IMG/VR virus record: IMGVR_UViG_3300009553_000019
Span: 62,001 to 126,000 of that record
DNA length: 64,000 nucleotides
From: a virus
Reading direction: 5' to 3' (one strand)
In this document: positions 11,359 through 25,237 of the stretch, piece after piece
Layout: each line of letters starts with the position of its first letter
Numbering within the stretch: the stretch's first letter is position 1
Notes under the pieces: generated by a model
What the model saw: the letters and a program-made list of their open reading frames with translations, nothing else
What the model was told of the DNA's origin: nothing
Databases searched by the model: none
Program-made: the position numbers and the translations under genes

Positions 11359-11789
11359 TTAATAGTTTTTCTGGAGAGTACTCATTTCTGTCGAATTTTT
11401 ATCAGATCAATCTGAACGTGATTGATGTCCAGTTAGGACCAATTCTGGTAAGATCTGTTGAGCATGGTTTCCAAGCAGATAAGACGCTTATAGCCAGCCA
11501 ACGTAGACAAATTTTAGAATCGCCTTCAGCTAAGCTAGCCAAGGCTGGTGGAAGAAAAGCGACATTGAGGCCTGATTGGAAGCAAGTCAAAATTGCTTCG
11601 ATGTATAATTGGCTGAGTAAGAAGTTTGCTATTCCAGAGCTAAAAGAGAAGTTGTTAGCAACCGGAGTTCAAACTTTGGTTGAAGGCAACACTTGGGGAG
11701 ATACTTTCTGGGGTGTTTGTGATGGTAAAGGTCAAAACAATTTAGGTAAGCTGTTGATGGAACTACGGGAGCAGTTACGTGGAACCTGA
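11355..11789 (+). CDS. NADAR-family protein (YbiA-like), candidate DNA ADP-ribosyl-guanine hydrolase
   Basis: 144 residues from GTG 11355. Family hallmarks: FSGEYSFLSNFY near the start (family: F...y.fLSNFy), VEHGFQADK near residue 35 (family: EH.fQA.K), and WGDTFWGVCDGKGQNNLGKL near 115-134 (family: WG...G.G.N.LGklLm.iR). Known biology: NADAR proteins pair with DarT-type toxins and remove ADP-ribose from guanine in DNA. A solo phage copy could reverse such host attack or act in NAD metabolism; there is no DarT next to it. It is translationally coupled to the clamp gene. Confidence 0.85.
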   Translation: MINSFSGEYSFLSNFYQINLNVIDVQLGPILVRSVEHGFQADKTLIASQRRQILESPSAKLAKAGGRKATLRPDWKQVKIASMYNWLSKKFAIPELKEKLLATGVQTLVEGNTWGDTFWGVCDGKGQNNLGKLLMELREQLRGT

Positions 11790-12348
11790 AGAGAAAACGA
11801 AGAAGAAATACCCACCAGACTTAGTAAGAAAATTGGCCATGTTTTTGACTGGCCACAAAGGGAATGAAGCACTAAACCGATTGGCGAAACAATTGGTAAT
11901 TGGCGCTGTAAAAGATAAGGGGTTCACAGATCATCAGAACGATAATCTGCCAGAAGTCTATGAGCGCCCTTATGTAGTGTTAGGACATTTCAATGTCTTG
12001 ACAAGATTTTCTATTGCTTCAGATGCTGGAAGGTTCAGCTGGGATTTTGCTTCAGGAATTTCTGATGGGCAGCGTCTAGCGGGTTTTGCCTCAGCAAAGG
12101 GACGATCATCTCATTGGGTTGGAGATGGAGCAGAGAAACTCTGGAAAGAGTTAAACATAGCAGGGGCTGTGTTAGTAGGTCTTTACGATGGGGATATCCG
12201 GTTCTTTTACATAGATAAAGAAGAGTTTTTTAGTCTAGGTACAGACAGGATTAACCCAAAAACAGATTCTGAGAATTTGGTAGTTTGGGAAGAGAATTGG
12301 AATAGATTGACGTTTCAACAGACTTTTGCTGGCATATTTGGGAGCTAA
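11779..12348 (+). CDS. Hypothetical protein, 189 aa
   Basis: Starts at GTG 11779, 11 bases inside the NADAR gene, and ends 1 base before the QueD start. The sequence is mixed alpha/beta: NVLTRFSIASDAGRFSWDF, then GLYDGDIRFFYIDKEEFF. That last piece resembles strands of restriction-endonuclease-like or MutH-like folds, but I see no certain catalytic PD-(D/E)xK motif. Function unknown. It sits between NADAR and the deazaguanine genes. Confidence 0.65.
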   Translation: MEPEEKTKKKYPPDLVRKLAMFLTGHKGNEALNRLAKQLVIGAVKDKGFTDHQNDNLPEVYERPYVVLGHFNVLTRFSIASDAGRFSWDFASGISDGQRLAGFASAKGRSSHWVGDGAEKLWKELNIAGAVLVGLYDGDIRFFYIDKEEFFSLGTDRINPKTDSENLVVWEENWNRLTFQQTFAGIFGS

Positions 12349-12349
12349 A

Positions 12350-13093
12350 ATGGGAATTACTGATTCGGTTAGTCGCACAGAAGCTTTAGAATTATTGCAT
12401 GCAGATTATCTAGTCGACCTAGAGTCATCTAAGAAAATTCTTGAGATTAGAAAAACAGCTCTTGCAAAAACTCCAAAACATGATCCTGTATATCCAAATT
12501 TGGAAGAAGATGTTGTTGCACAACAGGCCTTTATTGAAGGGTTGCCACTACGTCATTTAGAGGCAAAGGTTAAAATCGAAAGAGATTTCCTAGCCATTGA
12601 ATCCAGCAAAGCTTCGTTAGGAAGTAAGTTGCAGGGTTATCGATATCTGTCTACCAAGACGTTTAAAGTTGGCTCAGTAGCATTTAGACAATGGCGTGCG
12701 AAAAGCCATTGCTCGTTTGTCCACGGTTACCACCTGTCATTTAAGGTTTGGTTTGCTGCAAAAACCTTAGATGACAAGAATTGGGTGGCGGATTTTGGTA
12801 GCTTTAAAGATAATGGTATCAAAAGTTTTCTAGCGGAAACTTTTGATCATAAGACCTGTGTTGCAGGTGACGATCCACTCCTCGAATGGTTTAAAAATGG
12901 AGAATCAGCTTTTGGCTTAGTCCTTAGAGTTTTTGAGGGAGGGGTGGGTTGCGAGAAGTTTGCTGAATTTGTATTCAAGCAGATCGGTGGTAGAGTTTTG
13001 ATAGATTCTTTGAATAGGGTTAGAGTTGTTAAAGTAGAGTGTTTTGAAGATGGTACTGATAATTCAGCAATTTATGAAGAGCAATCTCTATGA
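12350..13093 (+). CDS. queD: QueD-like 6-carboxytetrahydropterin synthase with N-terminal extension
   Basis: ATG 12350 is chosen over the in-frame TTG 12326 because GGGAG lies 5 bases before it. About 110 N-terminal residues are an unassigned helical extension. The remainder fits the QueD/PTPS fold: catalytic-Cys segment CSFVHGYHLSF (about 121-131), NWVADFGSFK (usual GmV.DF..lK), and FDHKTC then DDPLLEWF (usual DH..L). HGYH replaces the common HGH, as in a QueD subfamily I recall from phages and proteobacteria. It would turn dihydroneopterin triphosphate into 6-carboxytetrahydropterin. It overlaps QueE by 4 bases. Confidence 0.8.
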   Translation: MGITDSVSRTEALELLHADYLVDLESSKKILEIRKTALAKTPKHDPVYPNLEEDVVAQQAFIEGLPLRHLEAKVKIERDFLAIESSKASLGSKLQGYRYLSTKTFKVGSVAFRQWRAKSHCSFVHGYHLSFKVWFAAKTLDDKNWVADFGSFKDNGIKSFLAETFDHKTCVAGDDPLLEWFKNGESAFGLVLRVFEGGVGCEKFAEFVFKQIGGRVLIDSLNRVRVVKVECFEDGTDNSAIYEEQSL

Positions 13094-13845
13094 CTGATTT
13101 GAGTAGTCTAAAAGCCCCGATTACTGAAATTTATACAGATACACTTCAGGGAGAAGGATCAACTGTAGGCAAGCTCTGCTCTTTTATCCGTTACACTGGA
13201 TGTCATCGAGAATGTTCATGGTGTGACTCCAAGCAGACTTGGAAACCGGGTATGATTGAGACTAGGAAAATGTCTGTTCAAGAGCAGGTAGATTTCTTAG
13301 TTGCTGGTAAAGCAAGAAGACTTATCATAACTGGTGGGGAGCCATTGTTGCATCAAGATAAACCTTACTTTCAAGAGCTGATAAAAGCTCTGTTTAGTGA
13401 AGGGTTCTGTTTTGAAGTGGAGACAGAAGGTACTCATGCTCCCAATCGATTTTTAGCTATGGCTGCTCATAGCGGGTTGCAGTTTAACTGCTCTCCTAAA
13501 CTTAAGTTAGCAGGGATGGGAGATCTTTCCGATGAGTATGCAAAGAAGCTACCTTTTTATGTATCAGCAACCTCCTTGTCAATGCTGTACGGATTAGGTG
13601 CGATCTTTAAGTTTGTAGTGGTTTCTGCTGATGATGTGGTTGAAGCGCTAGCTTTACTGCATAAGGCAATCCCAGACTCGGATACTAACCAACTGAGGAA
13701 ACGGATGTACATTATGCCAGAAGGTGTTACTAGAGAAGTTCAGCTAGAACGAATGCTAGCTGTGATTGATCTAGCAATCGAGTATGGTGTAAACTTTAGT
13801 CCCCGTCTTCATGTACTTCGCTGGAATGATAAGAAGGGCGTTTAA
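13090..13845 (+). CDS. queE: QueE, 7-carboxy-7-deazaguanine synthase (radical SAM)
   Basis: 251 residues. ITEIYTDTLQGEGSTVGKL followed by FIRYTGCHRECSWCDS gives the QueE opening with the cluster motif CX3CX2C (about 36-43). IITGGEPLLHQ (about 80-90) is the SAM-binding GGEP motif. FEVETEGTHAP and FNCSPKLK are family blocks. It converts 6-carboxytetrahydropterin to 7-carboxy-7-deazaguanine using a 4Fe-4S cluster and SAM. It overlaps QueD by 4 bases. Confidence 0.93.
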   Translation: MTDLSSLKAPITEIYTDTLQGEGSTVGKLCSFIRYTGCHRECSWCDSKQTWKPGMIETRKMSVQEQVDFLVAGKARRLIITGGEPLLHQDKPYFQELIKALFSEGFCFEVETEGTHAPNRFLAMAAHSGLQFNCSPKLKLAGMGDLSDEYAKKLPFYVSATSLSMLYGLGAIFKFVVVSADDVVEALALLHKAIPDSDTNQLRKRMYIMPEGVTREVQLERMLAVIDLAIEYGVNFSPRLHVLRWNDKKGV

Positions 13846-13847
13846 AT

Positions 13848-14252
13848 ATGTCTGAGTATAAACCCAATGAGAAGCTACGTGAATTAGCTCTTAGCATGGC
13901 TTCATTTATTGCAGCTATTGATTCTTCTAGCTCTGACGTAGCAGAATATATCGAACGAAGGCTATCACCTTTAATCGAGTTGATGGAAATCGATGCTAAA
14001 GTTGAAGAAGTTATAGATCGTTGTGGTTGGGATGGAAGAACATTGGAAGCAATGCGAATTGGAGCTCCAGTTAGAAAGTTGAAACACTGTCCAGCTGGTC
14101 TAGAAGAGAAATCACGAGAACTCCACCGTGAGTACCAATTGTTAGCTAAAGCTCAAGAAGCTGGAGCTGATAATAGAGCTGACGTTATTAGGGTGACTGA
14201 TGAATGCAACAGACTTGGAATCATACTAGTCCCAAACGGAGAGAATCTTTAA
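13848..14252 (+). CDS. Hypothetical protein, 134 aa
   Basis: Unrecognised helical, charged protein (KLRELALSMASFIAAIDS; then KSRELHREYQLLAKAQEAG). It starts 2 bases after QueE and is followed by a 24-base gap with an extended -10 element. It could be a small regulator or structural subunit; nothing in it decides. Confidence 0.65.
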   Translation: MSEYKPNEKLRELALSMASFIAAIDSSSSDVAEYIERRLSPLIELMEIDAKVEEVIDRCGWDGRTLEAMRIGAPVRKLKHCPAGLEEKSRELHREYQLLAKAQEAGADNRADVIRVTDECNRLGIILVPNGENL

Positions 14253-14261
14253 CTCTAGCTC

Positions 14262-14270
14262 TGGTAGAAT
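14262..14270 (+). promoter_or_regulatory. Extended -10 promoter TGG-TAGAAT, probably giving a leaderless mRNA
   Basis: TGGTAGAAT ends 6 bases before the GTG at 14277. At normal distance, transcription would begin at or next to the first base of that GTG, so the message would have no ribosome site. There is indeed no SD-like sequence in front of the GTG. Confidence 0.55.
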
Positions 14271-14276
14271 TGATTA

Positions 14277-14657
14277 GTGCTAAATCCAGTTATTCCTGAC
14301 GAATCTGAAATTGTTAAGTACGAACCACATAAGGTATTTCCAGTAAATGCAGAGCTATCAGAAACAAGTTCAGTAGTAGGTTTGCCCTGCGAGTTTTGTA
14401 ATCGATACTGCAAAACAGTAGGTAAGGCAAAAGACGAAGTTCTACAGGTTCAAGTTACACCAACTGGCTTTGAGTATAAGCGTTGGGGTGGTGGTGAGCT
14501 TGTTTGGCGTTGTGGAAGATGTGAATCGTTGAAACGTACAGTGACTTTAAAGGGAATGATTGTCGTTCCTGGGAAAATTCCGGAAAACAATCCAGAGGAT
14601 GTTAAGAAAATGGTTGGAGATAGGGTCTTTTCAGAAGTAAACGGGAAGAAATGGTGA
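14277..14657 (+). CDS. Small zinc-ribbon protein
   Basis: 126 residues from GTG 14277. Cys pairs are CEFCNRYC (about 37-44) and WRCGRCESL (about 78-86), a four-Cys zinc-ribbon arrangement. It overlaps the next gene by 7 bases. A nucleic-acid or protein-binding adaptor is likely; the target is unknown. Probably translated from a leaderless message (see the -10 box at 14262). Confidence 0.7.
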   Translation: MLNPVIPDESEIVKYEPHKVFPVNAELSETSSVVGLPCEFCNRYCKTVGKAKDEVLQVQVTPTGFEYKRWGGGELVWRCGRCESLKRTVTLKGMIVVPGKIPENNPEDVKKMVGDRVFSEVNGKKW

Positions 14658-15367
14658 ATCTGATGGAAATTGCGCCTAAAGTAAAACTGACGTTACCAAT
14701 TCTAGATGAGGTAAACCAATTCTCTCGATTGAATTTAAACCCTGAGAGGTTAAATCAGGTGCCTTGCTTTTCTGATGCATTGTTAAACGTGCATATGTGC
14801 AACCCTGACGTTCCTCCAGAGGGTAGCGAGCCAGTCTGCTCTATTCATTGGATTTGTAAATGCTTCCTCGGTGCTAGAATGGGGGTTGGACTAGCTCCAG
14901 ACGAACCCTATAATTTCGAGAAATCTAAGGCTTTTTGTAAACAGCTTACATATGCTAAGCTAATGGAAGCAATTAAAGCTAAGCAGGGTCTATTGGTGGA
15001 AAAAGATGCTCCAACATTGGTTGAAGAGAGTATCTCAGAAGAAAAGCTAAAAGAGGCTGAATTGGCTAAACCTCTTACTGAATCAGTAGAGGTTAAAGCC
15101 CCAAAGAATGCCACAGTAGTAGTTGCTAAAGAGCCAAAAGAGCAAGTCTCTAAAGAAGCTATAGGCAGTTATAAGCCTGGTTCTCAGGGTCATTACATTC
15201 TCTCCAATCTTCAGGTATCGGTAGAAACTCCCAAAAATGATATTTGGGTTAAAGTTGCAGCTAAGGGTTGGAGTTCAGAAAAGACATTCGAAAAGACGTT
15301 AGCTAAGTTGATTGAAGAGAAGCTACTTGAAATGCCAACTGCAGATACGCTTGTTCGAAAGGCTTGA
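14651..15367 (+). CDS. Hypothetical protein with possible C-terminal winged helix
   Basis: 238 residues. The N-terminal half has scattered Cys (CFSD, HMCNPD, CSIHWICKCF). A Lys/Glu/Pro-rich linker spans about 110-170. The C-terminal 60 residues (GSQGHYILSNL, DIWVKVAAKGWSSEKTFEKT, LIEEKLLEM) resemble a winged helix with a wing-like hairpin. No enzyme motif is seen. Next comes the KH-domain gene, 3 bases downstream. Confidence 0.65.
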   Translation: MVNLMEIAPKVKLTLPILDEVNQFSRLNLNPERLNQVPCFSDALLNVHMCNPDVPPEGSEPVCSIHWICKCFLGARMGVGLAPDEPYNFEKSKAFCKQLTYAKLMEAIKAKQGLLVEKDAPTLVEESISEEKLKEAELAKPLTESVEVKAPKNATVVVAKEPKEQVSKEAIGSYKPGSQGHYILSNLQVSVETPKNDIWVKVAAKGWSSEKTFEKTLAKLIEEKLLEMPTADTLVRKA

Positions 15368-15370
15368 TTT

Positions 15371-15655
15371 ATGGCTGATACTCGTGTTGATTCGATTCGT
15401 GAGATTCTTGAAGATTTGGTTATGCTGTTGGTGGACTTTCCAGATGAGGTAAAGGTTGAGATTGCTGGAACTGCGGATACTGTGGTATTTACTCTGAAGG
15501 TTCATGATGACGATATTGGTAAGGTCATTGGCCGACAAGGAGTAGTTGCACATAGCTTGAGAACCTTAGTAATCAGCTGCTGTGGTAGGTTGAAGAAGCA
15601 GGCTATCCTTGAGATTCCAGCTAAACCTAAAGATGGAGTTGAGAGAGGGAAATAA
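15371..15655 (+). CDS. KhpA-like single-KH-domain RNA-binding protein
   Basis: 94 residues, the size of bacterial KhpA (about 75-85). The pattern fits throughout: ILEDLVMLLVDFPDEVKVEI, then TLKVHDDDIGKVIGRQG with the GxxG loop GRQG (about 54-57), then AHSLRTLV. KhpA proteins bind RNA and ribosomes, often with KhpB. A phage copy could bind its own structured transcripts or redirect host RNA. It overlaps the radical SAM gene by 1 base. Confidence 0.8.
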   Translation: MADTRVDSIREILEDLVMLLVDFPDEVKVEIAGTADTVVFTLKVHDDDIGKVIGRQGVVAHSLRTLVISCCGRLKKQAILEIPAKPKDGVERGK

Positions 15656-16866
15656 TGTCTCAACGTTTGATTGAGAGTGGACCTCATAAGGGTAAGCCAG
15701 CGCTAACAAAAGCAGAGGTTCTTTTTACCAGAAGATGCCCTCTTAGATGTTCCGGGTGCTCTATTTTCAGAGTTGACGAAAATGGGGTTACCGACAACAA
15801 TCAAGCTGATGCTGAAGAAGCAACAATGGATGAGTGGTTCAGAACTCTTGATAATTTATCAGAGTTGGGAACGCAGTTCATAGCTTTGTATGGTGCAGAG
15901 CCTGCCCAAGTACCTAACAGAGTTGCTAGTTTTCTTCATTATGCAGAGAATATCGTTAAGATTCCAACATCTGTGATTACGTCTGGTGTTGGGCTTACGA
16001 CAGACATTCTAGATTTATGGTGGAATTCTGGTCTTAGATCATTGACGATGTCGGTTGATGGCCTGGCTGATGATCAGACTTCATCTGTTTCAAGTAAGGT
16101 TAAGACGAACAAAGCCTGGCAGTTTTTGAAGTACTGGGTTGAGAAGTATGGTTCTCAGATGCGGGATGCTGAGGGCTGTATGACCTTAACCAGGAAGAAT
16201 GTAGCAGTTCTTCCAGAGCTAATTAAGGTCATGACAGATAAAAATGTCTGGCTGCATTTCGATATGATTCACTCAAATCGAGGTCAACCTTATAGTAAGG
16301 TTGAACGTCATGTAGATTTGACTGGTCTTATGTTTGAGTCTGATGAAGACGTTCAGATTTTGAACGAAGCAATTGACCAAGTCATAGCGATGAAGTCTGG
16401 GGGTTATTTGATTCATCCATCGGTTGAATCATTGATTGGTATGAAAAAGCATGGACCAAAGATGGATTGGCAGTGCTGTCAAGGGGAAAGTGGCTTTTTA
16501 GGGTTTGTTACGGTGGATCCAAATTGTGTGATTCGACCATGCGATGATTTTCTTCCACCAGAGATGGATACACCAAAGGACCATGCTAGAGTTAGTCCTG
16601 AACGACTTGGAAAGCAAGTAGTAAGGGATGGTAACAAAAAGGTGTTAAGACTGCTTCCACAGTCGTATGACTTGGATGTGCCTAGTACTCCAGTCTTTGG
16701 TTGGGAACTATCTGCCAGGTTTGAAGAGTACAAGAAACGTACTAAAGAAATGGTTGAGAAGCACAATTGTCGTTGCTATTGGGCTACTCATGCTGACGCT
16801 CAATCCATCTATGAAGGTAGAGTTTCGATCGAGCATTACATCCATCGACAAATTTCTGACACGTGA
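15655..16866 (+). CDS. Radical SAM protein with SPASM-like C-terminus
   Basis: 403 residues. CPLRCSGC (about 28-35) is the CX3CX2C cluster site in AEVLFTRRCPLRCSGC. A GAEP (ALYGAEPAQ) takes the place of GGEP. C-terminal Cys residues (CC near 273, CVIRPCDD near 295, CRCYW near 372) fit an auxiliary-cluster SPASM/twitch region. Such enzymes modify peptides, sugars or nucleobases; the substrate here is unknown. Lying between QueE and Gat-QueC, beside an FkbM methyltransferase, it is a candidate for tailoring the deazaguanine base or a protein. Confidence 0.82.
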   Translation: MSQRLIESGPHKGKPALTKAEVLFTRRCPLRCSGCSIFRVDENGVTDNNQADAEEATMDEWFRTLDNLSELGTQFIALYGAEPAQVPNRVASFLHYAENIVKIPTSVITSGVGLTTDILDLWWNSGLRSLTMSVDGLADDQTSSVSSKVKTNKAWQFLKYWVEKYGSQMRDAEGCMTLTRKNVAVLPELIKVMTDKNVWLHFDMIHSNRGQPYSKVERHVDLTGLMFESDEDVQILNEAIDQVIAMKSGGYLIHPSVESLIGMKKHGPKMDWQCCQGESGFLGFVTVDPNCVIRPCDDFLPPEMDTPKDHARVSPERLGKQVVRDGNKKVLRLLPQSYDLDVPSTPVFGWELSARFEEYKKRTKEMVEKHNCRCYWATHADAQSIYEGRVSIEHYIHRQISDT

Positions 16867-16881
16867 AACCAATTGAAACAA

Positions 16882-17622
16882 ATGGAAAACAGACTAAAAG
16901 TTGTCAAGAATTCTGTAGTAGAATACCAGTATCAGTTTAGGTGTTACACTGAGCCAACGGTATTGTCTTCTTTGCACCCCAGTTGGTATACTCACGACGA
17001 TGAACAAGAAGTTAGAGATCGTGTCTGGCATATTGAGAATGGTGCATGGATTTTTGATGTTGGGGCTGCCTATGGAAGCTATACTCTAGCAGCGTTGGCA
17101 CAAGGTGCAGAAAAAACTTTTAGTTGGTCTCTAGAAGGTGGGATCGATGAGTTAACTGAAGTTGAGCTCCTCAAAGAGTCATTAGCTTTAAATGGTTGGC
17201 AAGACAGAGCTAGGTTATTTAATACAGGACTGTATAGCAGGGATGGGTGGCTAGATGTGATGTCACAGCAGTTCTACTCTATAGCACCTAGCTTAGAAGA
17301 AAGAGTTGGGAAGCCAATTTTTAAGGTTAGTAAGCTTGACACCTGGCTAGAAGATTTCATTGCGGAAGGTTTTGATTTTTCTGTTAGTCGACCCTATTGG
17401 TTGAAGCTGGATGTAGAGGGTGCTGAGGTAGAGGTTCTAAAAGGTGCTGAAAACCTCATTAAAACTCTTCGTCCAAAAATTTCAGTAGAAAACCACACGT
17501 TTAAAGACACTTCGATTCCAGAACGTGTTAGGCAATTAGTTGAAAGCCACGGTTATCAACACATTGAAACTGTACCACATGGTGTCGTAAGCCACAGCTT
17601 TTACCTACCTTTGAAGCTATGA
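16882..17622 (+). CDS. FkbM-family SAM-dependent methyltransferase
   Basis: Start taken as ATG 16882 (TTG 16873 is also in frame; neither has an SD). SAM site FDVGAAYGSYTLAAL at about 57-71. The FkbM signature KLDTWLEDF and WLKLDVEGAEVEVLKGAE follows at about 150-185, then RPKISVENH. FkbM enzymes O-methylate small molecules and glycans. In this cluster it may act with the radical SAM protein, but the substrate is not known. It overlaps the next small gene by 4 bases. Confidence 0.88.
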   Translation: MENRLKVVKNSVVEYQYQFRCYTEPTVLSSLHPSWYTHDDEQEVRDRVWHIENGAWIFDVGAAYGSYTLAALAQGAEKTFSWSLEGGIDELTEVELLKESLALNGWQDRARLFNTGLYSRDGWLDVMSQQFYSIAPSLEERVGKPIFKVSKLDTWLEDFIAEGFDFSVSRPYWLKLDVEGAEVEVLKGAENLIKTLRPKISVENHTFKDTSIPERVRQLVESHGYQHIETVPHGVVSHSFYLPLKL

Positions 17623-17804
17623 GTTGTCAACATACGAAAACAGTTCGAGGCGAAGACATACCAAGAAGGTATGGTTCATATCGATCTGAAGTATGCAAAG
17701 ATTGCGGTAAGTTTCGTAGGCTAAATCACCATGATGAAGTTGTGGGAGATTGGCAACCAGCTGAAGAGTATGCCTCAGCTATAGAGAAAGACGAAGAGCT
17801 ATGA
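17619..17804 (+). CDS. Small Cys/His protein, 61 aa
   Basis: CQHTKTVRGE and SEVCKDCGKFRRLNHH give Cys and His residues typical of a small zinc-binding protein. It is coupled on both sides by 4-base overlaps. Function unknown. Confidence 0.6.
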   Translation: MSCQHTKTVRGEDIPRRYGSYRSEVCKDCGKFRRLNHHDEVVGDWQPAEEYASAIEKDEEL

Positions 17805-17998
17805 AAGTAAAATGGCTAACCGTATCTTCTGTCGAAGATATTCCCGGTGGAGTTGCGGTTAAGTTTTCAGCCCTCACCAATTCGAAATTAGTGGAAGTGA
17901 TGATACTGAATATGGATAAAACAGACTACAAAGTTGGGGAACGGATTTACTTGGTTAGCGAACTTTCTTTACGCTCATTGGGCTTTGTGATTGATTGA
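17801..17998 (+). CDS. Hypothetical protein, 65 aa
   Basis: Beta-rich (VKWLTVSSVEDIPGGVAVKF; VGERIYLVSELSLRSLGF), perhaps a small barrel. 4-base overlap with the upstream gene. Unrecognised. Confidence 0.55.
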   Translation: MKVKWLTVSSVEDIPGGVAVKFSALTNSKLVEVMILNMDKTDYKVGERIYLVSELSLRSLGFVID

Positions 17999-18014
17999 GA
18001 TTTGTCGAAACACT

Positions 18015-18311
18015 ATGAATCATACTTGCCATGCTATTGATTGCACTAAGCAAGTTCCACCAAAGATGTTTATGTGTCTAAAGCATTGGAGAATGGTTCC
18101 TAAAAAGCTTCAGATCACAGTTTGGAATCAGTATCGACCTGGCCAAGAAATTGATAAACAACCTTCACTGTATTACCTGTCAGTACAGCAAATGGCAGTG
18201 GCAGAAGTAGCAAGATTAGAAGGTAAAATAGAACAAGCTAGTGTCTGTTTTCAAGACAGTTTAAAGTATGGTACAGCAGCAAAAGAAGCTGGAGAAGTTT
18301 GGAGAGGTTGA
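18015..18311 (+). CDS. Conserved small Cys-rich phage protein
   Basis: MNHTCHAIDCTKQVPPKMF, then MCLKHWRMVPKKL and VWNQYRPGQEIDKQPS. I recognise this pattern (CHA..C...VPP.m..C..HW...P..l...vw..yrpGQe) as a widespread small phage/bacterial hypothetical, which favours ATG 18015 over TTG 17991. C-x4-C and C-x2-H suggest zinc binding. Function unknown. Confidence 0.7.
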   Translation: MNHTCHAIDCTKQVPPKMFMCLKHWRMVPKKLQITVWNQYRPGQEIDKQPSLYYLSVQQMAVAEVARLEGKIEQASVCFQDSLKYGTAAKEAGEVWRG

Positions 18312-18638
18312 ATGTCCAGTTATCACTACAACGACGATTTACGAAAGCATCTTAAGAAGCCTTCTGAGATTCCTTCAACCCCGCACTATGCGATATTGAT
18401 TTTTGAAGATCGGACTTATTGTGAAGCTGGGTGGGATGCCAATGATCCACCAACTACAGGTACTTATAGTGCTGCTAATTACTACGCATTTGAAGACCAG
18501 CAACTAGCAGAAAAAGTAGTAAAAGATCTTTATCAAGAAAATCAACATAATCTTCCCACTCACAAAGAAACAATTGTATTCTTCAAATCTAGTGGTAAAG
18601 CAGTAGTCGACATTTCTTTTAAGATTGGGTTTAAGTGA
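18312..18638 (+). CDS. Hypothetical protein, 108 aa
   Basis: Soluble, aromatic-rich protein (HYNDDLRKHL, YAILIFEDRTYCEAGW, YYAFEDQQLAEKVVKDLY). Starts at the stop of the preceding gene and ends one base before Gat-QueC. No motif recognised. Confidence 0.6.
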   Translation: MSSYHYNDDLRKHLKKPSEIPSTPHYAILIFEDRTYCEAGWDANDPPTTGTYSAANYYAFEDQQLAEKVVKDLYQENQHNLPTHKETIVFFKSSGKAVVDISFKIGFK

Positions 18639-18639
18639 C

Positions 18640-20355
18640 ATGTGTTGCATATTTGGAGCTAAGGTTAATCGTTGTTCTGATATTGACCAGCTAGCTAAGA
18701 AAATCACCAGAATGGCCATTTCTGGTGAGGATAGGGGTCGAGATGGTACTGGCGTAATTATCATCCACCCAACCCCTACTCCCAGGGTTGATGTCTTCAG
18801 ATCTCCTGAAAGAGCTTCAATTTGTGAAGAATCTCTTTATGCTTTTTTAGCAACGCATCTCTCTGAGAATTGCATTGTCGTAGGCAATAACCGATATCAG
18901 CCTCTTCAACAGCCAGATTCAGTAAATGAGTTAGCAAGACAACCCATTTATGTTGATGGTGTAATTCTAACCCACAACGGAACGTTTCCAGAAGATGATC
19001 TTCTGCAGGAGAAGTTTCATCTTAAGAATGAAACTGGGATTGATAGTGAAGTTTTAGCCAGGTTGTACCGACATTATCAGACGTTTGGTCAACGATTGCA
19101 GACTTCGGTTAAGATGTCGATATCGACTATTCAACATTTATTGCATGAGGTTGCTGGTGGTTTCGCTTGTGCTTTAGTTGATTCAAGGTCCCCAGGCACA
19201 CTACATCTTTTTCGTAACTTTAAACCACTCACCTTAGCATGGGTTCATTCTGATGAGGATGAAGAAGATCCAGATCTTAAGGTAAACGATTATCTTCTTT
19301 ACAATAGCGAAGCAAAGAACATTGAGGTTGCTGATGGTCGAAGAGATTGGCTAGACCCTCATATTCGATGGTTTGATATGCCCGCATATAGTGGCTTTAG
19401 TCTAGATGGTGGAGGGGTCGAACACTACTGGAAACTTGAAAACAAGATCTTAGCAAGTTTGCCAGCTAGATCTTCTAAGAGGTCGCTAGTTATCTGCTCT
19501 GGTGGTTTGGATAGTTCATTAGCAGCCTTCGTTTCAGCTAAGCTGGAAGGAAATGAAGTAACTCTTCTTCATATGGACTATGGGCAACGAGCTGTTGAAA
19601 GAGAAAAAGAAGCTGTAAATGTAGTTGCTGAAGAACTACAATGTAAAGCAGTTTTCGTTGATGCCAGCTATATTGGAAAATGGCATTCAACTAGTCCACT
19701 GATCAAGAATGGTGATGAGATCCCTCAAGGGTTTAGAAGCTCTGAATCTACACTTTGTTGGACTGCAGCTAGGAATATGGTGTTTCTAACCTTAGCTGCT
19801 GCATTTGCTGAAGGGCAAGGTTATTCAAGTATCTATTCTGGGTTTAACCTTGAAGAATCTGGTTCTTATAGTGACAATACTATAGAGTTTTTTAAGCGAT
19901 TTGATGCTTTTGCTGAGTTTGGAACGCAGACAAGGGTTACGAGTAGGTTGTCAATTGCCAGGTTGATGAAGACTGACAACATTCGTTTAGCTCACCACCT
20001 GAAGGTTCCGATGCAAGCAACTTGGAGCTGCGATACTTCAGGGGTTTTTGTTAAGGATCGCTACCCTAACAATGAATTTTACGAAAACTCTGTGAAGAGC
20101 TTAGACTTTTATGTTAATGCAGAGTGGAATAAAGATCACGATAGAGAAAAGGTTAACCATCAAAGAGCCCACATTCCTTGTGGAACCTGCGGATGTTGCC
20201 ATACCCGTAGGATTGCCTATAAGCGGGCTGGTTTACTAGACCCACAGCTTTATGCAGCACCTTTAAAAGATCTTCCACCATGGTGGAACGATGCTATCAA
20301 ACCTAGTCCTTATAGCATTGAAGAGTTGGTGATGGAAGTTCAAAAGGTTCGATAG
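18640..20355 (+). CDS. queC: Gat-QueC: glutamine amidotransferase (class II) fused to QueC
   Basis: ATG 18640 is chosen because it places Cys at residue 2 (MCCIFGAK), the N-terminal nucleophile of class II amidotransferases (canonical MCGIFG); in-frame TTG 18625 would bury it. Residues 1-265 are the amidotransferase (LTHNGTFPED near 110, AGGFACALVDS near 175). From about 280 the QueC domain begins: PP-loop CSGGLDSS (about 286), MDYGQRAVEREKEA, and zinc site PCGTCGCCHTRR near 512-522. QueC makes preQ0 from 7-carboxy-7-deazaguanine with ATP and ammonia. Gat-QueC fusions are linked in archaea and phage 9g to archaeosine. A 9-bp hairpin lies near codon 21. Confidence 0.9.
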   Translation: MCCIFGAKVNRCSDIDQLAKKITRMAISGEDRGRDGTGVIIIHPTPTPRVDVFRSPERASICEESLYAFLATHLSENCIVVGNNRYQPLQQPDSVNELARQPIYVDGVILTHNGTFPEDDLLQEKFHLKNETGIDSEVLARLYRHYQTFGQRLQTSVKMSISTIQHLLHEVAGGFACALVDSRSPGTLHLFRNFKPLTLAWVHSDEDEEDPDLKVNDYLLYNSEAKNIEVADGRRDWLDPHIRWFDMPAYSGFSLDGGGVEHYWKLENKILASLPARSSKRSLVICSGGLDSSLAAFVSAKLEGNEVTLLHMDYGQRAVEREKEAVNVVAEELQCKAVFVDASYIGKWHSTSPLIKNGDEIPQGFRSSESTLCWTAARNMVFLTLAAAFAEGQGYSSIYSGFNLEESGSYSDNTIEFFKRFDAFAEFGTQTRVTSRLSIARLMKTDNIRLAHHLKVPMQATWSCDTSGVFVKDRYPNNEFYENSVKSLDFYVNAEWNKDHDREKVNHQRAHIPCGTCGCCHTRRIAYKRAGLLDPQLYAAPLKDLPPWWNDAIKPSPYSIEELVMEVQKVR

Positions 20356-20358
20356 ACT

Positions 20359-20631
20359 ATGCCAAACCTTTATTACAACGACTGTGATTATGTTATTGCT
20401 GATTCTGTTGATGCTGCTAACAAAGTTCTATCTGAAACTTTAGGCCTCGATGTTGTAGAAGAGGACTGTGCTTTCACCGAAGCTGATATGGTAAAATTAG
20501 AGAAGATGGTTAGCATCTGGCTAAACGAAGAAGGTGAAGTATCGGAACCCGGTGATGGTTTGCTTACAACTTTTTCAGTAGCAGAGTGGTGTAAGCTAAG
20601 GTCTGGTTATCTTGGTTCAACGGAGCATTAA
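20359..20631 (+). CDS. Hypothetical acidic protein, 90 aa
   Basis: Acidic, ending in a helical part (ADMVKLEKMVSIWLNEEG; FSVAEWCKLRSGYLG). It sits between the two QueC genes, 3 bases after the first. Not recognised. Confidence 0.55.
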   Translation: MPNLYYNDCDYVIADSVDAANKVLSETLGLDVVEEDCAFTEADMVKLEKMVSIWLNEEGEVSEPGDGLLTTFSVAEWCKLRSGYLGSTEH

Positions 20632-21048
20632 ATGCAAAGACGATCGTTTTTAACTGGGCTAGTAGCAGTTGCTAGTCAATTAGTAGTTGATCCAAATGAG
20701 GTAAGACGAGTCTATTCTTTTGGTAAGCATTACCCGTCAATCTGGATCCAAAACATAGGTCTTTTACCATCGAGAACACCAACCAGTGAAAGGTATAAAC
20801 TATTCGCTGATCATGATGGGGTTTATAGGCTGCCAAATTATGTTGCAGTTGAAAATCAACATGTACCAGGAAAGTTGATTACTGGTATAGGTTGCAGAGT
20901 TGTTGATAGTGTTGTTGAGGATGGCGTACTAGTTAGAACTGGTTCCTATGTCTGCGGTAACCTCATTAAGGGAATCTTGGACTTGGACGTCTCAGGCTCA
21001 CCACTCACGCCTATCCAAAACTTAGTAGTGGAAGGTTTGCTAACTTGA
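20632..21048 (+). CDS. Hypothetical protein with RRSFLTG N-terminus, 138 aa
   Basis: Begins MQRRSFLTGLVAVAS, a twin-arginine-like motif followed by a short hydrophobic stretch. Similar RRSFLTG starts occur in small proteins of many phages, apparently not exported. The rest is beta-rich (YKLFADHDGVYRLPNYVA; GIGCRVVDSVVEDGVLVRT). I do not call it a Tat substrate with confidence because the hydrophobic part is short. It overlaps QueC2 by 4 bases. Confidence 0.6.
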   Translation: MQRRSFLTGLVAVASQLVVDPNEVRRVYSFGKHYPSIWIQNIGLLPSRTPTSERYKLFADHDGVYRLPNYVAVENQHVPGKLITGIGCRVVDSVVEDGVLVRTGSYVCGNLIKGILDLDVSGSPLTPIQNLVVEGLLT

Positions 21049-21779
21049 CAAACTGCATTCTTTTTTCTGGTGGAGTTGATTCACTTATTGGTTGGTTTAG
21101 GATGGGTAAGCCAGCTGCTCTGTACTGTTCTTTGGGACATCGCTACGAAGGACTAGAACTTAATGCTACAAAAAACCTTGAAGATGTTACTCCTGAACTG
21201 AAAGTAACTGATATTGATTTGCTTTCAAACTTAGGTCAGTTTGAAAAGGAAGATGCGGAAATTCCTGGTAGAAACTTCCAGCTAGCTTTCGCTGCAGCCA
21301 TCAATGGTTATGATCATATTGGGGTGGTCTGCCAAAAAGATGAGAGATCTATACCTGACCGTTCTATCTACTTTTTTGGACTAGCAGAAAAAACTCTGAG
21401 CTACCTGTTTAATCGAAAAATAATCTTAGATCCTGTCTTTCCAGAGCATGATAAAACAGAGATGATCAAGTGGTTCCTAGACACAGAGCTAGGTATCGAG
21501 CGTGGACACAAGATAGAGATTCTAAAAGCTACTGTTGCTTGCTATCAACCACGATCAAACAGACAATGTGGCAACTGCCCAGCATGCTTTCGTAGAGCGG
21601 TAGCGTTTTGTAATAATGGTATTTTCGAAGTTTATGCTCAAGATGTATGGTGCTCGCCAATCGCAAAAGAGTACCTAAGAAAAGCAAAGAATGGTAGTTA
21701 CAGTGAAGATAGAAACAATCGAATATTGAATGCTTTCGTAGAGGCTGGAGTTTTGTTATCAGCAGATCCTGAAGTTTGA
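21045..21779 (+). CDS. Second QueC-like enzyme (free-standing)
   Basis: 244 residues from TTG 21045. PP-loop FSGGVDSL (about 7-14), then a QueC-type zinc site RQCGNCPACFRR (about 172-183) at the right place. Middle segments (EIPGRNFQLAFAAAINGYDHIG) fit QueC blocks (PGRN). It is clearly divergent from the Gat-QueC domain. Known biology: QueC adenylates a carboxylate and amidates it; QueC-like proteins also occur in defence systems (QatC, Cap9). Two QueC genes with one DpdA suggests the copies run different steps. It ends 10 bases before the tRNA gene. Confidence 0.82.
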   Translation: MTNCILFSGGVDSLIGWFRMGKPAALYCSLGHRYEGLELNATKNLEDVTPELKVTDIDLLSNLGQFEKEDAEIPGRNFQLAFAAAINGYDHIGVVCQKDERSIPDRSIYFFGLAEKTLSYLFNRKIILDPVFPEHDKTEMIKWFLDTELGIERGHKIEILKATVACYQPRSNRQCGNCPACFRRAVAFCNNGIFEVYAQDVWCSPIAKEYLRKAKNGSYSEDRNNRILNAFVEAGVLLSADPEV

Positions 21780-21789
21780 TTGATTGATT

Positions 21790-21863
21790 GGGACTGTAAT
21801 TCAATTGGTTAGAATTCCCGGCTCATAACCGGGCGGTTGTCGGTTCGAACCCGACCGGTCCCA
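21790..21863 (+). tRNA. tRNA with CAU anticodon (Met, elongator-like or Ile2)
   Basis: 74 bases forming a full cloverleaf: acceptor GGGACTG/CGGTCCC (one G-T pair), D stem ATTC/GAAT, anticodon stem CCCGG/CCGGG with loop CTCATAA, variable loop of 5, T stem GTCGG/CCGAC with TTCGAAC loop, discriminator A. The 3' CCA is not encoded. CAU could decode Met, or Ile (AUA) after lysidine modification; the sequence alone does not settle it. The D loop AATTGGTTA has GG. It sits in the deazaguanine cluster between QueC2 and a methyltransferase. Confidence 0.93.
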
Positions 21864-21883
21864 CGATAGGAGTTTAAAAAGAG

Positions 21884-22669
21884 ATGAAATTGCATTTGGG
21901 TGCTGGAACTTGTCTTAAAGATGGTTGGACGAATGCTGATGTTTGGGTTCCAGATTGTGTCAAGCTGTTTTGGAATCGTTTGAGTAGAGAAGATGAACTT
22001 GGTGAGGCTAGAGTTTGGGTTAAGCCTGGACAAGAATCCGACGTTGCTAATGCTACAAAGTTCGTAAAGCTCAGATCAGCTCAAGATCTCTCAGCTTTTG
22101 AAGCTGGAAGTTGTGATGAGATATATTCAGCGCATTGGATGGAACATTTTCATCCAGCAGTTGCCTACGAATTATTTGGAGAGTTTCAAAGACTACTGAA
22201 GCCAGGGGTTGGAACTATGCTTCATGTGGTCCCAGATTTTGATAGGTTGGTCTACATGTGGCAAGCCATGCACAGTGAATGGGATCTTGAATTTCCTGTT
22301 CAAGCATGGAGAACCGTAGAAGATAATGCCCAAAGGAGGGTGAAAGTGGACACTTATGTTAATCCCTCTACTTTGATGCAGGAGAAATCTGATGAAGAGA
22401 TTAGAGCAGAATCAGCCAAAGAAAAGGCTGAACATCAATCTCGATTAGTCTATGACTATGAACGCTATAATACGATTGTCAACGGTACTTTGTGCCCGTT
22501 CTTATTCTCAAGTGATTATCCACAGCATAAGAGCCTATGGGGAAAGCATCTCGCAACTTTCCTGATGAAACGGTGGGGTTTTGATGATGTCAAAGCTGAA
22601 GTTGTAGGAACTGATTTACACTTTTCAGCTAAGTCTCCTACTGGTATTTATAACACAATCAGACTATGA
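21884..22669 (+). CDS. SAM-dependent methyltransferase-like protein
   Basis: 261 residues after AGGAG. Class I SAM-site LHLGAGTCLKDGWTNADVW (residues 3-21) and the later CDEIYSAHWMEHF, then FQRLLKPG and LHVVPDFDRLV match the methyltransferase type 11 style (hlGaG..l.gwiNvD, ...s.hvleHf...eW.RvLkpGG). The C-terminal half is unassigned. Which substrate it methylates is unknown; its position between QueC2 and DpdA makes a nucleobase or its precursor possible. Confidence 0.75.
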   Translation: MKLHLGAGTCLKDGWTNADVWVPDCVKLFWNRLSREDELGEARVWVKPGQESDVANATKFVKLRSAQDLSAFEAGSCDEIYSAHWMEHFHPAVAYELFGEFQRLLKPGVGTMLHVVPDFDRLVYMWQAMHSEWDLEFPVQAWRTVEDNAQRRVKVDTYVNPSTLMQEKSDEEIRAESAKEKAEHQSRLVYDYERYNTIVNGTLCPFLFSSDYPQHKSLWGKHLATFLMKRWGFDDVKAEVVGTDLHFSAKSPTGIYNTIRL

Positions 22670-22890
22670 AACCAAAGCATTTAGATCCAGTAACCCTGCT
22701 AAGACTTCGACCGATTGATAGAATGGTTTTAACTGATTTGATAGTCGATATGGAACTGACTCCAGAACAGGTAGTTGCTGAGGCGTTACACCAGTTGATC
22801 ATTAAACGATCAAAAGATAAGGCAAAAGAAATTCGAAAAGTTGTTAAACGTATTAAGCCTAACGTTTCTTACTTGAGTCTGGTTAAGTAA
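22666..22890 (+). CDS. Small DNA-binding-like protein, 74 aa
   Basis: LLRLRPIDRMVLTDLIVDM and TPEQVVAEALHQLIIKRS resemble a ribbon-helix-helix or short HTH pattern, followed by a basic tail (KAKEIRKVVKRIK). Overlaps its left neighbour by 4 bases and DpdA by 1. Probably a regulator; target unknown. Confidence 0.6.
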   Translation: MKPKHLDPVTLLRLRPIDRMVLTDLIVDMELTPEQVVAEALHQLIIKRSKDKAKEIRKVVKRIKPNVSYLSLVK

Positions 22891-24653
22891 TGGCTAGCAA
22901 CTCGTCGTATTATCCTGTCATCTTCGTAGATGCTAAGCTTTTGAAGTGTGAGGATATTCTAGGAAAACCTGGAAAATGGTGGTGTTGGTATCACCCGGAC
23001 TCAATCTTTTATCACCCTCATTTGCTTAGTAACGCCTTCACATCTAAAGACCAGCCAGAGCATAGGAAACATTTAGGTATTCCAGAAGAAACCTATGTTC
23101 TGGCGGATTCAGGTGGATTTCAAATTCACCAGAATATGAAGGCTGGTAAGAAGATTGATATCGAGCCATTGGAAATCTTGCGATGGCAGGAACGAAATGG
23201 CGATTGTGCTTTCATCATCGATACCCCAATTGGTGCTGAACACGATGATGCAACTTACGAACAGGGCTTAAAAGATACGATTGACAATGCTCAGTTCTTT
23301 CAGGACAATATGGTTTCTGATAAGCTGAGGATGTTAAACGTTTTGCATGGTCATACTTACGACCGAACTGTTCGGTGGTATGAAGAACTGTCGAAGTTTA
23401 CCTACCGCGGTAAGAATGGTTGGTCAGTAGGTTTTCATCCTTCTGGCGATGTAATGGGGCAGGCTAGGATGATGGGGTTCTTGATGCACATGGGGCATAC
23501 AGGATATACCCACTTTCTAGGAACGTCTGGTTGGAATGTTCAACCCCTGCTAGTATATGGGGCACAGTTCTTTGATCGACTGGTGTATGATAGTTCTTCG
23601 TATGCTTCTGGTTATACCACGAGAACGTATATCATGCCCTATGATGTAGCTAAGGGTGAAGAGCTAACGTTTGGTGATAGGTTACAATCATGGCATGGGT
23701 TGAAGAAACCACCTTGTTCATGTCCAGTCTGTACCCACATTCTGGAGAATGGTTATGACTTTAGCACTGCGATGAGACACCCTCAAGCGGGTGGTCATGT
23801 CATTTCTATGCACAACCTGTGTTTAATGATTGAGCGCCACAAGAAGTTAGAAGCTCTTCGTGACGACAAGCATAGGTATTTCAAGTATGTTCAAGATCAT
23901 TGCAGTAAGGCATCGTTTATGGCTTTGCATTACATCGATGATTGTCGATCAATGGGTTATTTAGCTGCTACTGAACGTTATGCAAAGTTGTTTCAAAGGA
24001 CTGTTGTCAGCCAAGTTCAAGCAGAGTTTGACTCACTTTTTGTTCAACCAAGCAAGTTAAAAGAGCAGGCTGCAATTAGAGATGATACCCCAGCACCACC
24101 AAAGATCAGTAAAAAGACAGGCTTACCACGTAAGGTGAAGGTTAAGCCACCAAAAGGGCCAAAGCTGGTGGGCTCGATTTCTTTTTCAGACATTCCTGCG
24201 ATTCAAGCTCTGGCAACTCAACTTAATACTGATCTTATCAATGGTTCATCAGAAGTTACTGATCAGGAAGTTGTTAGCGGACTTAGTCCTGTCGTACCAG
24301 CTCCAGAAGAGCTGCAAGAAGAAAGTCTAACTCTCCCTTGCCCAACGTCAGATACTGTAGAAACAAAAGATGTTGATACTGAGCCAGTAAAAGATAATTC
24401 AGCAATCTTCGATCACCATTTAATCGAGATTCCCAAGGCTCCAAAGGTCCCGAAAGTATTATTAACTGAGCCAAAACAACCTAAGGTAAAGAAGACGTCT
24501 AAGCCTCAGATGTTGGATTTATCTGGTATGCAAGAAGTTCATTTAGATGTAGTAGTAGAGAAACCAGAATGTTTTGGAACTCATGAACCTGGAATCTGTA
24601 CAGGTGAGTTTTGTCAGACAGTTTACGAAGAATGTAAGGGAATCAATCAGTGA
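22890..24653 (+). CDS. dpdA: DpdA-family DNA guanine transglycosylase with C-terminal extension
   Basis: 587 residues. The TGT barrel shows LADSGGFQI near 71 (general-acid Asp region), HGHTYDRT, GWSVGFHPSG, THFLGTSG and FDSSSY-type VYDSSSYASG near 232 (nucleophile Asp region), and zinc ligands CSCPVC near 275-281. DpdA swaps guanine in DNA for preQ0 or its derivatives. Beyond about 380 comes a Pro/Lys-rich linker (repeated KxPKxPK) and a final Cys cluster (CFGTHEPGICTGEFCQ) near 567-585. TGTs and DpdA proteins are usually about 370-450 residues, so the last 180 are unusual. It overlaps FolE by 4 bases, so synthesis and insertion genes are coupled. Confidence 0.88.
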   Translation: MASNSSYYPVIFVDAKLLKCEDILGKPGKWWCWYHPDSIFYHPHLLSNAFTSKDQPEHRKHLGIPEETYVLADSGGFQIHQNMKAGKKIDIEPLEILRWQERNGDCAFIIDTPIGAEHDDATYEQGLKDTIDNAQFFQDNMVSDKLRMLNVLHGHTYDRTVRWYEELSKFTYRGKNGWSVGFHPSGDVMGQARMMGFLMHMGHTGYTHFLGTSGWNVQPLLVYGAQFFDRLVYDSSSYASGYTTRTYIMPYDVAKGEELTFGDRLQSWHGLKKPPCSCPVCTHILENGYDFSTAMRHPQAGGHVISMHNLCLMIERHKKLEALRDDKHRYFKYVQDHCSKASFMALHYIDDCRSMGYLAATERYAKLFQRTVVSQVQAEFDSLFVQPSKLKEQAAIRDDTPAPPKISKKTGLPRKVKVKPPKGPKLVGSISFSDIPAIQALATQLNTDLINGSSEVTDQEVVSGLSPVVPAPEELQEESLTLPCPTSDTVETKDVDTEPVKDNSAIFDHHLIEIPKAPKVPKVLLTEPKQPKVKKTSKPQMLDLSGMQEVHLDVVVEKPECFGTHEPGICTGEFCQTVYEECKGINQ

Positions 24654-25237
24654 AACACGTTTACAATAAAGCGCAATGTGAAGCAGGTATCGATCTTCTC
24701 CTAAAGGGGCTGGGGGTGGATCTAGAAGATGATAATTTCACTGAAACTCCCGCTAGAGTTGCTAGAGCTTTTAGGGAGCTTTGTTCGGGACTGTATATAG
24801 AGACTGATGATATTGCAAAAATCTTTGGAAAGACTTTTGATTCACCCTACAAGGGCATTATCCAGGTCGGTCCTGTAATTGCTCATGGTGTTTGTCCACA
24901 TCATCTTTTGCCTGTAGAAATTGAAGCCGTTTTGGCTTATCTACCAAGGGATAAGAAACTTGGACTCTCAAAGTTAGCCCGAGCAATTAAAATGTTTGCT
25001 GCTAGACCAGCTATGCAGGAAACTGTTTCGCATGATCTGGTAGAAGCATTCGTTAAGTATGTCGATCCTTTGGGTGTAGCTCTTTACATGAATGGTAAGC
25101 ATAACTGTATGACTTGCCGAGGTATTTTGCAGACTCAAAGCACTGCGATTACCTTAGATGTCAGAGGTCTGTTTGAGACTGATCCAGGTGTGAAGACTGA
25201 ATTTCAACGACTTCTTAGCCAACAGTTGAGGAAGTGA
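24650..25237 (+). CDS. folE: GTP cyclohydrolase I (FolE)
   Basis: 195 residues. Family blocks: NFTETPARVARAFREL, CPHHLLPVEIEA (zinc Cys and catalytic His region), LGLSKLARAIKMFAARP, and HNCMTCRGI. It hydrolyses GTP to dihydroneopterin triphosphate, the first step to preQ0. Length is close to the usual 190-220. A phage copy would raise flux into deazaguanine and it is coupled to DpdA by a 4-base overlap. Start TTG or GTG is not needed: the ORF begins at GTG 24650. Confidence 0.93.
   Translation: MKHVYNKAQCEAGIDLLLKGLGVDLEDDNFTETPARVARAFRELCSGLYIETDDIAKIFGKTFDSPYKGIIQVGPVIAHGVCPHHLLPVEIEAVLAYLPRDKKLGLSKLARAIKMFAARPAMQETVSHDLVEAFVKYVDPLGVALYMNGKHNCMTCRGILQTQSTAITLDVRGLFETDPGVKTEFQRLLSQQLRK

Follow-up and report, generated by a model that had tools for sequence, protein, structure and literature searches.

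A divergent QueC-family protein and a linked radical-SAM protein in the 7-deazaguanine gene cluster of an uncultured phage

A 7-deazaguanine gene cluster

The stretch of DNA analyzed here (the window) comprises 64,000 nucleotides, bases 62001 to 126000 of the 152,626-base IMG/VR virus record IMGVR_UViG_3300009553_000019, which represents an uncultured phage. Between positions 12350 and 25237 of the window, codirectional genes on the + strand encode FolE, QueD, QueE, a fusion of an amidotransferase domain to QueC (Gat-QueC), and a DpdA-type guanine transglycosylase with a tRNA-guanine transglycosylase (TGT) fold. A previous sequence-only reading had named these five genes as a complete pathway for 7-deazaguanine modification of DNA, and their presence was confirmed by profile matches and, for DpdA, by a structure model. 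What that reading overlooked were two further genes inside the same interval, encoding a stand-alone, divergent QueC-family protein (here called QueC2) and an additional, non-QueE radical S-adenosylmethionine (rSAM) protein, a pair that marks a conserved module.

The conversion of GTP into 7-carboxy-7-deazaguanine (CDG) by FolE, QueD, and QueE is an established pathway. In the window, FolE, a GTP cyclohydrolase I, is encoded at 24650 to 25237 (PF01227, 7e-44) and QueE, the CDG synthase, at 13090 to 13845 (phrog_2076, 1e-49; TIGR03365, 4e-23), with the CX3CX2C motif of radical-SAM enzymes present in the latter. The QueD-like 6-carboxytetrahydropterin synthase (12350 to 13093, with its ATG at 12350; 247 amino acids; PF01242, 5e-14; phrog_2389, 3e-32) has an N-terminal extension of ~100 amino acids, and its canonical AAH and HGH zinc-histidine motifs are replaced by FRQW and HGYH. 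Similar zinc-motif variants were found in Alteromonas phage R7M and in ~30 other viral QueD matches in our survey, the FRQW form being frequent in QueC2 contigs lacking the rSAM gene, while the closest relative of the window cluster, locus L102, encodes a QueD with the standard motif. Since the window variant lacks the standard zinc histidines, its step is less certain, and the earlier claim that the phage could make 7-cyano-7-deazaguanine (preQ0) without host help is plausible as a whole but weakened at this point. Neither QueF nor any further Pfam-TGT copy was found in the whole virus record. With the genes for CDG synthesis accompanied by a TGT fold that carries both catalytic aspartates (see below), there is good support for the proposal that phage enzymes carry out most of the synthesis of 7-deazaguanine DNA.

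QueC2 and its radical-SAM partner

QueC2 (21045 to 21779; PF06508, 3e-13) is a PP-loop protein belonging to a clade that, on a tree of 114 proteins, comprised 98 members and stood apart from both canonical QueC and Gat-QueC (Shimodaira-Hasegawa-like approximate likelihood ratio test [SH-aLRT], 100). The clade retains the SGGxDS ATP loop, PxRN, the zinc site C(x)8CxxCxxC, and, in 100% of its members, the base-reading D133; in Cap9 and QueC, the corresponding aspartate recognizes the deazaguanine by its Watson-Crick edge (PMC13279940). Y131 is present in essentially none of the members, Y35 has mostly gone, and C134 is replaced by lysine or arginine in more than 90%; the window protein lacks both tyrosines. 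The canonical motifs YxQxHxxE and YPDC were likewise not found, with L-G-H-R-Y and IPDR in their place in the window protein, a pattern that holds across the clade. In Escherichia coli QueC, the mutants Y35A, R99A, Y131A, and Y189A are inactive (PMC13329287). From these residues, we infer for QueC2 an ATP-dependent reaction on a bound 7-deazaguanine, such as CDG, that does not follow the normal course to preQ0.

Campylobacter phage CPt10, which has full 7-amido-7-deazaguanine (ADG) modification in the form of the deoxynucleoside dADG (PMC8306585), encodes a QueC with Y131F and Q37S substitutions, a hint, although not proof, that these positions may govern how far the reaction proceeds. That protein nevertheless grouped with canonical QueC on the tree, and we therefore rejected QueC2 as a dADG-type QueC of the CPt10 kind. 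Scans of cellular sequences for QueC2 yielded three weak matches, two of them canonical or Gat-like and the third in a Ruminococcus metagenome-assembled genome contig without pathway genes. In Bacteroides phage BS162P1 and two uncultured gut phages, a QueC2-family protein adjoins a transglycosylase of the type found in Enterobacteria phage 9g (DpdA1) and QueE; neither the rSAM protein nor Gat-QueC was seen in the flanks of these loci. Downstream of QueC2 in the window, a single tRNA-Met (CAT) gene (21790 to 21864) precedes a gene for a class I methyltransferase-like protein.

The rSAM protein (15655 to 16866; 403 amino acids; PF04055, 3e-13) carries C28, C32, and C35 as its CX3CX2C motif and three further invariant cysteines (C274, C296, and C374), which suggest an auxiliary cluster in the C-terminal part. 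Foldseek matched its AlphaFold2 model (predicted local distance difference test score, 78) to PqqE/viperin/MoaA/SPASM-like structures at low identity: PqqE, viperin, MoaA, and SuiB have the rSAM fold and CX3CX2C in common with the window protein but are only 10 to 20% identical to it, with a query-normalized TM score of ~0.45. Scores against the NCBIfam models for MoaA, PqqE, and viperin were far below the curated cutoffs. The protein had no match in 50,697 named phage records; its counterpart from locus L217 gave a weak partial match in two Acinetobacter phage records (28% over 47%, annotated as MoaA-like), and a pattern-based scan of cellular genomes, limited in sensitivity, found no relative. 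The gene lies between those for a KhpA/KhpB-type KH-domain protein immediately before it (15371 to 15655; PF13083, 1e-17) and an FkbM-family methyltransferase immediately after it (16873 to 17622; PF05050, 1e-15), the latter being absent from the related loci examined.

When IMG/VR was searched with a profile of the rSAM protein alone, 42 contigs were recovered, 41 of which also carried QueC2, in most cases no more than a few hundred bases away; the remaining contig contained only a partial rSAM gene, located at the edge of the retrieved sequence. (DpdA or QueC2 as a single-protein query of IMG/VR returned nothing, whereas profile alignments did match.) In all four search sets, every rSAM protein scoring above 200 was accompanied by QueC2. 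The reverse is not true, as many QueC2 clusters lack an rSAM protein of this family. Within the 42 contigs, we found 9g-type DpdA in 37, FolE in 36, QueE in 32, and QueD in 28; Gat-QueC was absent from most (4 contigs had it), and none showed a canonical QueC. Of 20 whole rSAM-bearing records, nearly all had QueC2 either as the sole QueC-family protein or together with Gat-QueC. QueC2 was present at only 5 of 80 Gat-QueC loci (Fisher test, 1e-25, uncorrected for relatedness). The rSAM proteins of all loci fell into 35 to 36 groups at 60 to 90% identity (35 clusters at 60%), and the pair is thus not confined to one lineage. L102, the 183-kb relative, keeps the whole set, with identities of 51% for Gat-QueC, 55% for rSAM, and 44% for QueC2. 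A small (~100-amino-acid) HAD-like protein, weakly resembling the PNKP phosphatase, was encoded near QueC2 and DpdA at 30 of the 42 loci (e.g., L217, 10660 to 10959). The best explanation overall, to which we assign a probability of roughly 55%, is that QueC2 and the rSAM protein add or replace steps after CDG, in which case the end product may be a base other than preQ0 or archaeosine (G+).

The same linkage bears on a different role for the pair, in which QueC2 would act like Cap9 and conjugate CDG to a protein or peptide amine, the rSAM protein would modify the conjugate, and the resulting counterdefense or signaling module would merely share CDG with the DNA pathway. QueC-family proteins of type IV CBASS (cyclic oligonucleotide-based antiphage signaling system) do deazaguanylate protein N termini, and SPASM/twitch peptide enzymes are among the relatives of the rSAM protein. 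Such a role is nonetheless improbable, given the strong linkage to DpdA, FolE, and QueE, a QatC model score for QueC2 of 17.5 bits (cutoff, 280), and the absence from QueC2 of the Y/FxQ and YxDC motifs of Cap9. In addition, no conserved partner protein or precursor peptide was noticed, albeit without a systematic search.

The Gat-QueC fusion and the transglycosylase

Phages with 7-deazaguanine DNA (9g, CAjan, and nt-1) are already known, as are phages with Gat-QueC. The dPreQ0 pathways of CAjan and nt-1 resemble the window cluster in combining FolE, QueD, and QueE with a stand-alone QueC-family protein and a transglycosylase; they differ in that their QueC is canonical (CAjan QueC scored 207 bits on the canonical model, which includes nt-1, versus 26 on the QueC2 model) and in that an rSAM protein of the window family was not found in named phages. 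The complement of phage 9g (FolE, QueD, QueE, Gat-QueC with its N-terminal cysteine, and DpdA; PMC6884629) is also encoded in the window, although the 9g genome is much smaller (56.7 kb versus a record of 152.6 kb) and the window phage has a Gat-QueC of another clade without Y189, a transglycosylase that is not of the 9g type, and the extra QueC2 and rSAM genes.

The window Gat-QueC (18640 to 20355; 571 amino acids; PF06508, 7e-39; GATase_6/7) carries an insert in its zinc motif. Its start at the ATG at 18640 yields MCCIFGAK, so that the nucleophile Cys2 of the amidotransferase domain is intact, as the sequence-only reading had stated. In a tree of 80 distinct Gat-QueC proteins, in which archaeal ones were not placed, the 13 that occur with QueC2, including that of the window, formed one separate clade (SH-aLRT, 99). 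The equivalent of Y189 is gone in 11 of these 13 (aspartate in 8, among them the window protein) and kept in all 67 others. Since the 13 form a single clade, which amounts to about one evolutionary event, the association between QueC2 and Y189 loss is suggestive only. Some clusters belonging to this clade encode, next to Gat-QueC, another radical-SAM protein that differs from the first (L104, 8901 to 9851; L105, 11052 to 12071; L192, 5989 to 6951); similar weak matches are the only extra rSAM proteins at L103, L196, L208, and L218.

These observations are relevant to 2'-deoxyarchaeosine (dG+), the product predicted by the earlier reading, which no longer appears secure. Under this alternative, our main rival, the phage would resemble 9g: Gat-QueC would convert CDG via preQ0 to G+ for insertion by DpdA, QueC2 would supply Gat-QueC as a redundant preQ0 synthase, and the rSAM protein would be unrelated. 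The architecture and Cys2 of Gat-QueC do match those of 9g, QueC2 retains the ATP loop, the zinc site, PxRN, and D133, and a division of labor between the two proteins would account for the loss of Y189. The 9g protein produces dG+ in E. coli also when the host queC is missing (PMC6884629), a result that, however, is not simply transferable to the window protein because the latter belongs to a different clade. Considering also that the rSAM protein is invariably found with QueC2, that most such clusters lack Gat-QueC, and that QueC2 has lost Y35 and Y131, two tyrosines that E. coli QueC cannot do without, we consider a plain dG+ pathway unlikely, although it is the strongest of the alternatives.

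The transglycosylase (22890 to 24653) had no Pfam or PHROGs match, only a weak NCBIfam match far below the cutoff (TIGR00432, 8e-10), and no TGT match in PDB sequence searches with either the single sequence or a two-row profile; therefore, its fold was assessed by structure prediction. The AlphaFold2 model, for which 16 relatives were included, was confident to about residue 380, with a disordered tail from about residue 400 to 406 onward, and all 50 PDB matches listed by Foldseek were tRNA-guanine transglycosylases, archaeal TgtA first (best, 1j2b and 1iq8; E value, ~1e-9). D73, D111, D234, and H308 are invariant among the 17 aligned proteins. By position and motif, D73 and D234 are the putative catalytic pair, and H308 is the histidine of a CxCxxC...H zinc site. 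The catalytic residues presumed by the earlier reading are thus in place within this fold. The protein gave no BLAST match to 9g DpdA at an E value of ≤1, only a chance-level 29-residue match to Kpn2 DpdA, and no direct match to nt-1 DpdA2 at the same threshold, although both it and DpdA2 touch a protein of Vibrio phage GR7B; by BLAST, it is neither of the 9g type (DpdA1) nor of the nt-1 type (DpdA2). The closest named relatives are TGT-domain proteins of the jumbo phages GR7B, Pseudomonas phage Illi-2, and Erwinia phage Ep032, which share its catalytic and zinc residues at 20 to 28% identity; 7-deazaguanine synthesis genes are not annotated in the flanks viewed. Tandem DpdA-like genes, two or three per phage contig, were seen at L022 (8787 to 12267) and L023 (1045 to 3328).

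The resemblance to archaeal TgtA, the nearest fold, raises the question of whether the enzyme acts on host or phage tRNA rather than on DNA, as an arcTGT would. Its DSSSY and CxCxxC...H motifs look arcTGT-like, and a tRNA-Met gene lies within the cluster. Yet the protein has no PUA-type C-terminal domain, the model being disordered beyond residue ~400, and most clusters with QueC2 and rSAM have a DpdA of the 9g type, a family for which activity on DNA has been demonstrated. A tRNA target is, in our view, the least probable of the alternatives, and a very improbable one.

Proposed pathway and neighboring genes

If QueC2 and the rSAM protein indeed add or replace steps after CDG, the pathway might run as follows. 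FolE, QueD, and QueE would convert GTP to CDG, and QueC2 would use ATP to activate CDG at its C7 carboxylate. Because the tyrosines needed for preQ0 in E. coli QueC are lost, QueC2 most likely halts at a product of the amide type, either ADG or an N-substituted amide, instead of the nitrile, and that product would then be tailored by the rSAM protein. In the window phage, the specialized Gat-QueC would supply a glutamine-derived nitrogen, either leading to preQ0 and G+ or amidating the tailored base. Finally, the TGT-fold DpdA would swap guanine in DNA for the finished base; alternatively, Gat-QueC and the rSAM protein might act after insertion. A bolder version, which we advance tentatively and find slightly less convincing than the general explanation, is that QueC2 and its obligate rSAM partner make a 7-deazaguanine derivative new to DNA in ~35 diverse uncultured phage lineages, as a separate, preQ0-bypassing branch of hypermodification to which the window phage has added a Gat-QueC step.

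Several points weigh against the involvement of the pair in such post-CDG steps. The rSAM protein is tied to DNA modification by gene linkage only, and QueC2 could yet produce preQ0 if its pocket were remodeled. CPt10 offers only an analogy, its QueC being of the canonical family, and the pattern connecting Gat-QueC, QueC2, and Y189 reflects about one event. The collections searched might undersample isolates. The sequences show which enzymes are present, the fold and catalytic residues of DpdA, the linkage of QueC2 to the rSAM protein, and the clades, whereas every substrate and product beyond CDG, the sequence of reactions, and a protective effect against restriction are inferred.

The pair, present in dozens of viral contigs, is apparently undescribed, and its product may be a base so far unknown in DNA; no description of the module was found in the literature searched, which did not extend to Cui et al. 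2023. That study reportedly covers further 7-deazaguanines and the CDG decarboxylase DpdL, the formyltransferase DpdN, and the methyltransferase DpdM, and the novelty would fall if QueC2, rSAM, or a neighbor equaled one of these. DNA modification of phages blocks restriction enzymes, and every new DNA base is a counterdefense as well as a source of enzymes. The existence of a QueC-family branch that lacks the tyrosines for preQ0 formation, and of which one part is tied to a single rSAM family, predicts a 7-deazaguanine base not seen so far and a novel reaction of CDG. It also serves as a warning that the presence of a Gat-QueC fusion alone does not justify reading dG+.

Among the neighboring genes, the class I S-adenosylmethionine-dependent methyltransferase-like gene on the + strand (21884 to 22669; weak Methyltransf_11 match) has relatives in L102, L105, and a few other rSAM-QueC2 clusters (6 of the 42) and encodes a possible candidate tailoring enzyme. 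Just 5' of the cluster lies a gene for a NADAR-domain protein (11355 to 11789; PF08719, 7e-23; below the cutoff for the NCBIfam NADAR antiphage family), possibly linked to NAD/ADP-ribose metabolism. Outside the window, a further radical-SAM protein (G000:C1, ~10932 to 12461 [L002]; PF04055, 3.7e-23; 511-amino-acid frame) adjoins glycosyltransferase-like genes.

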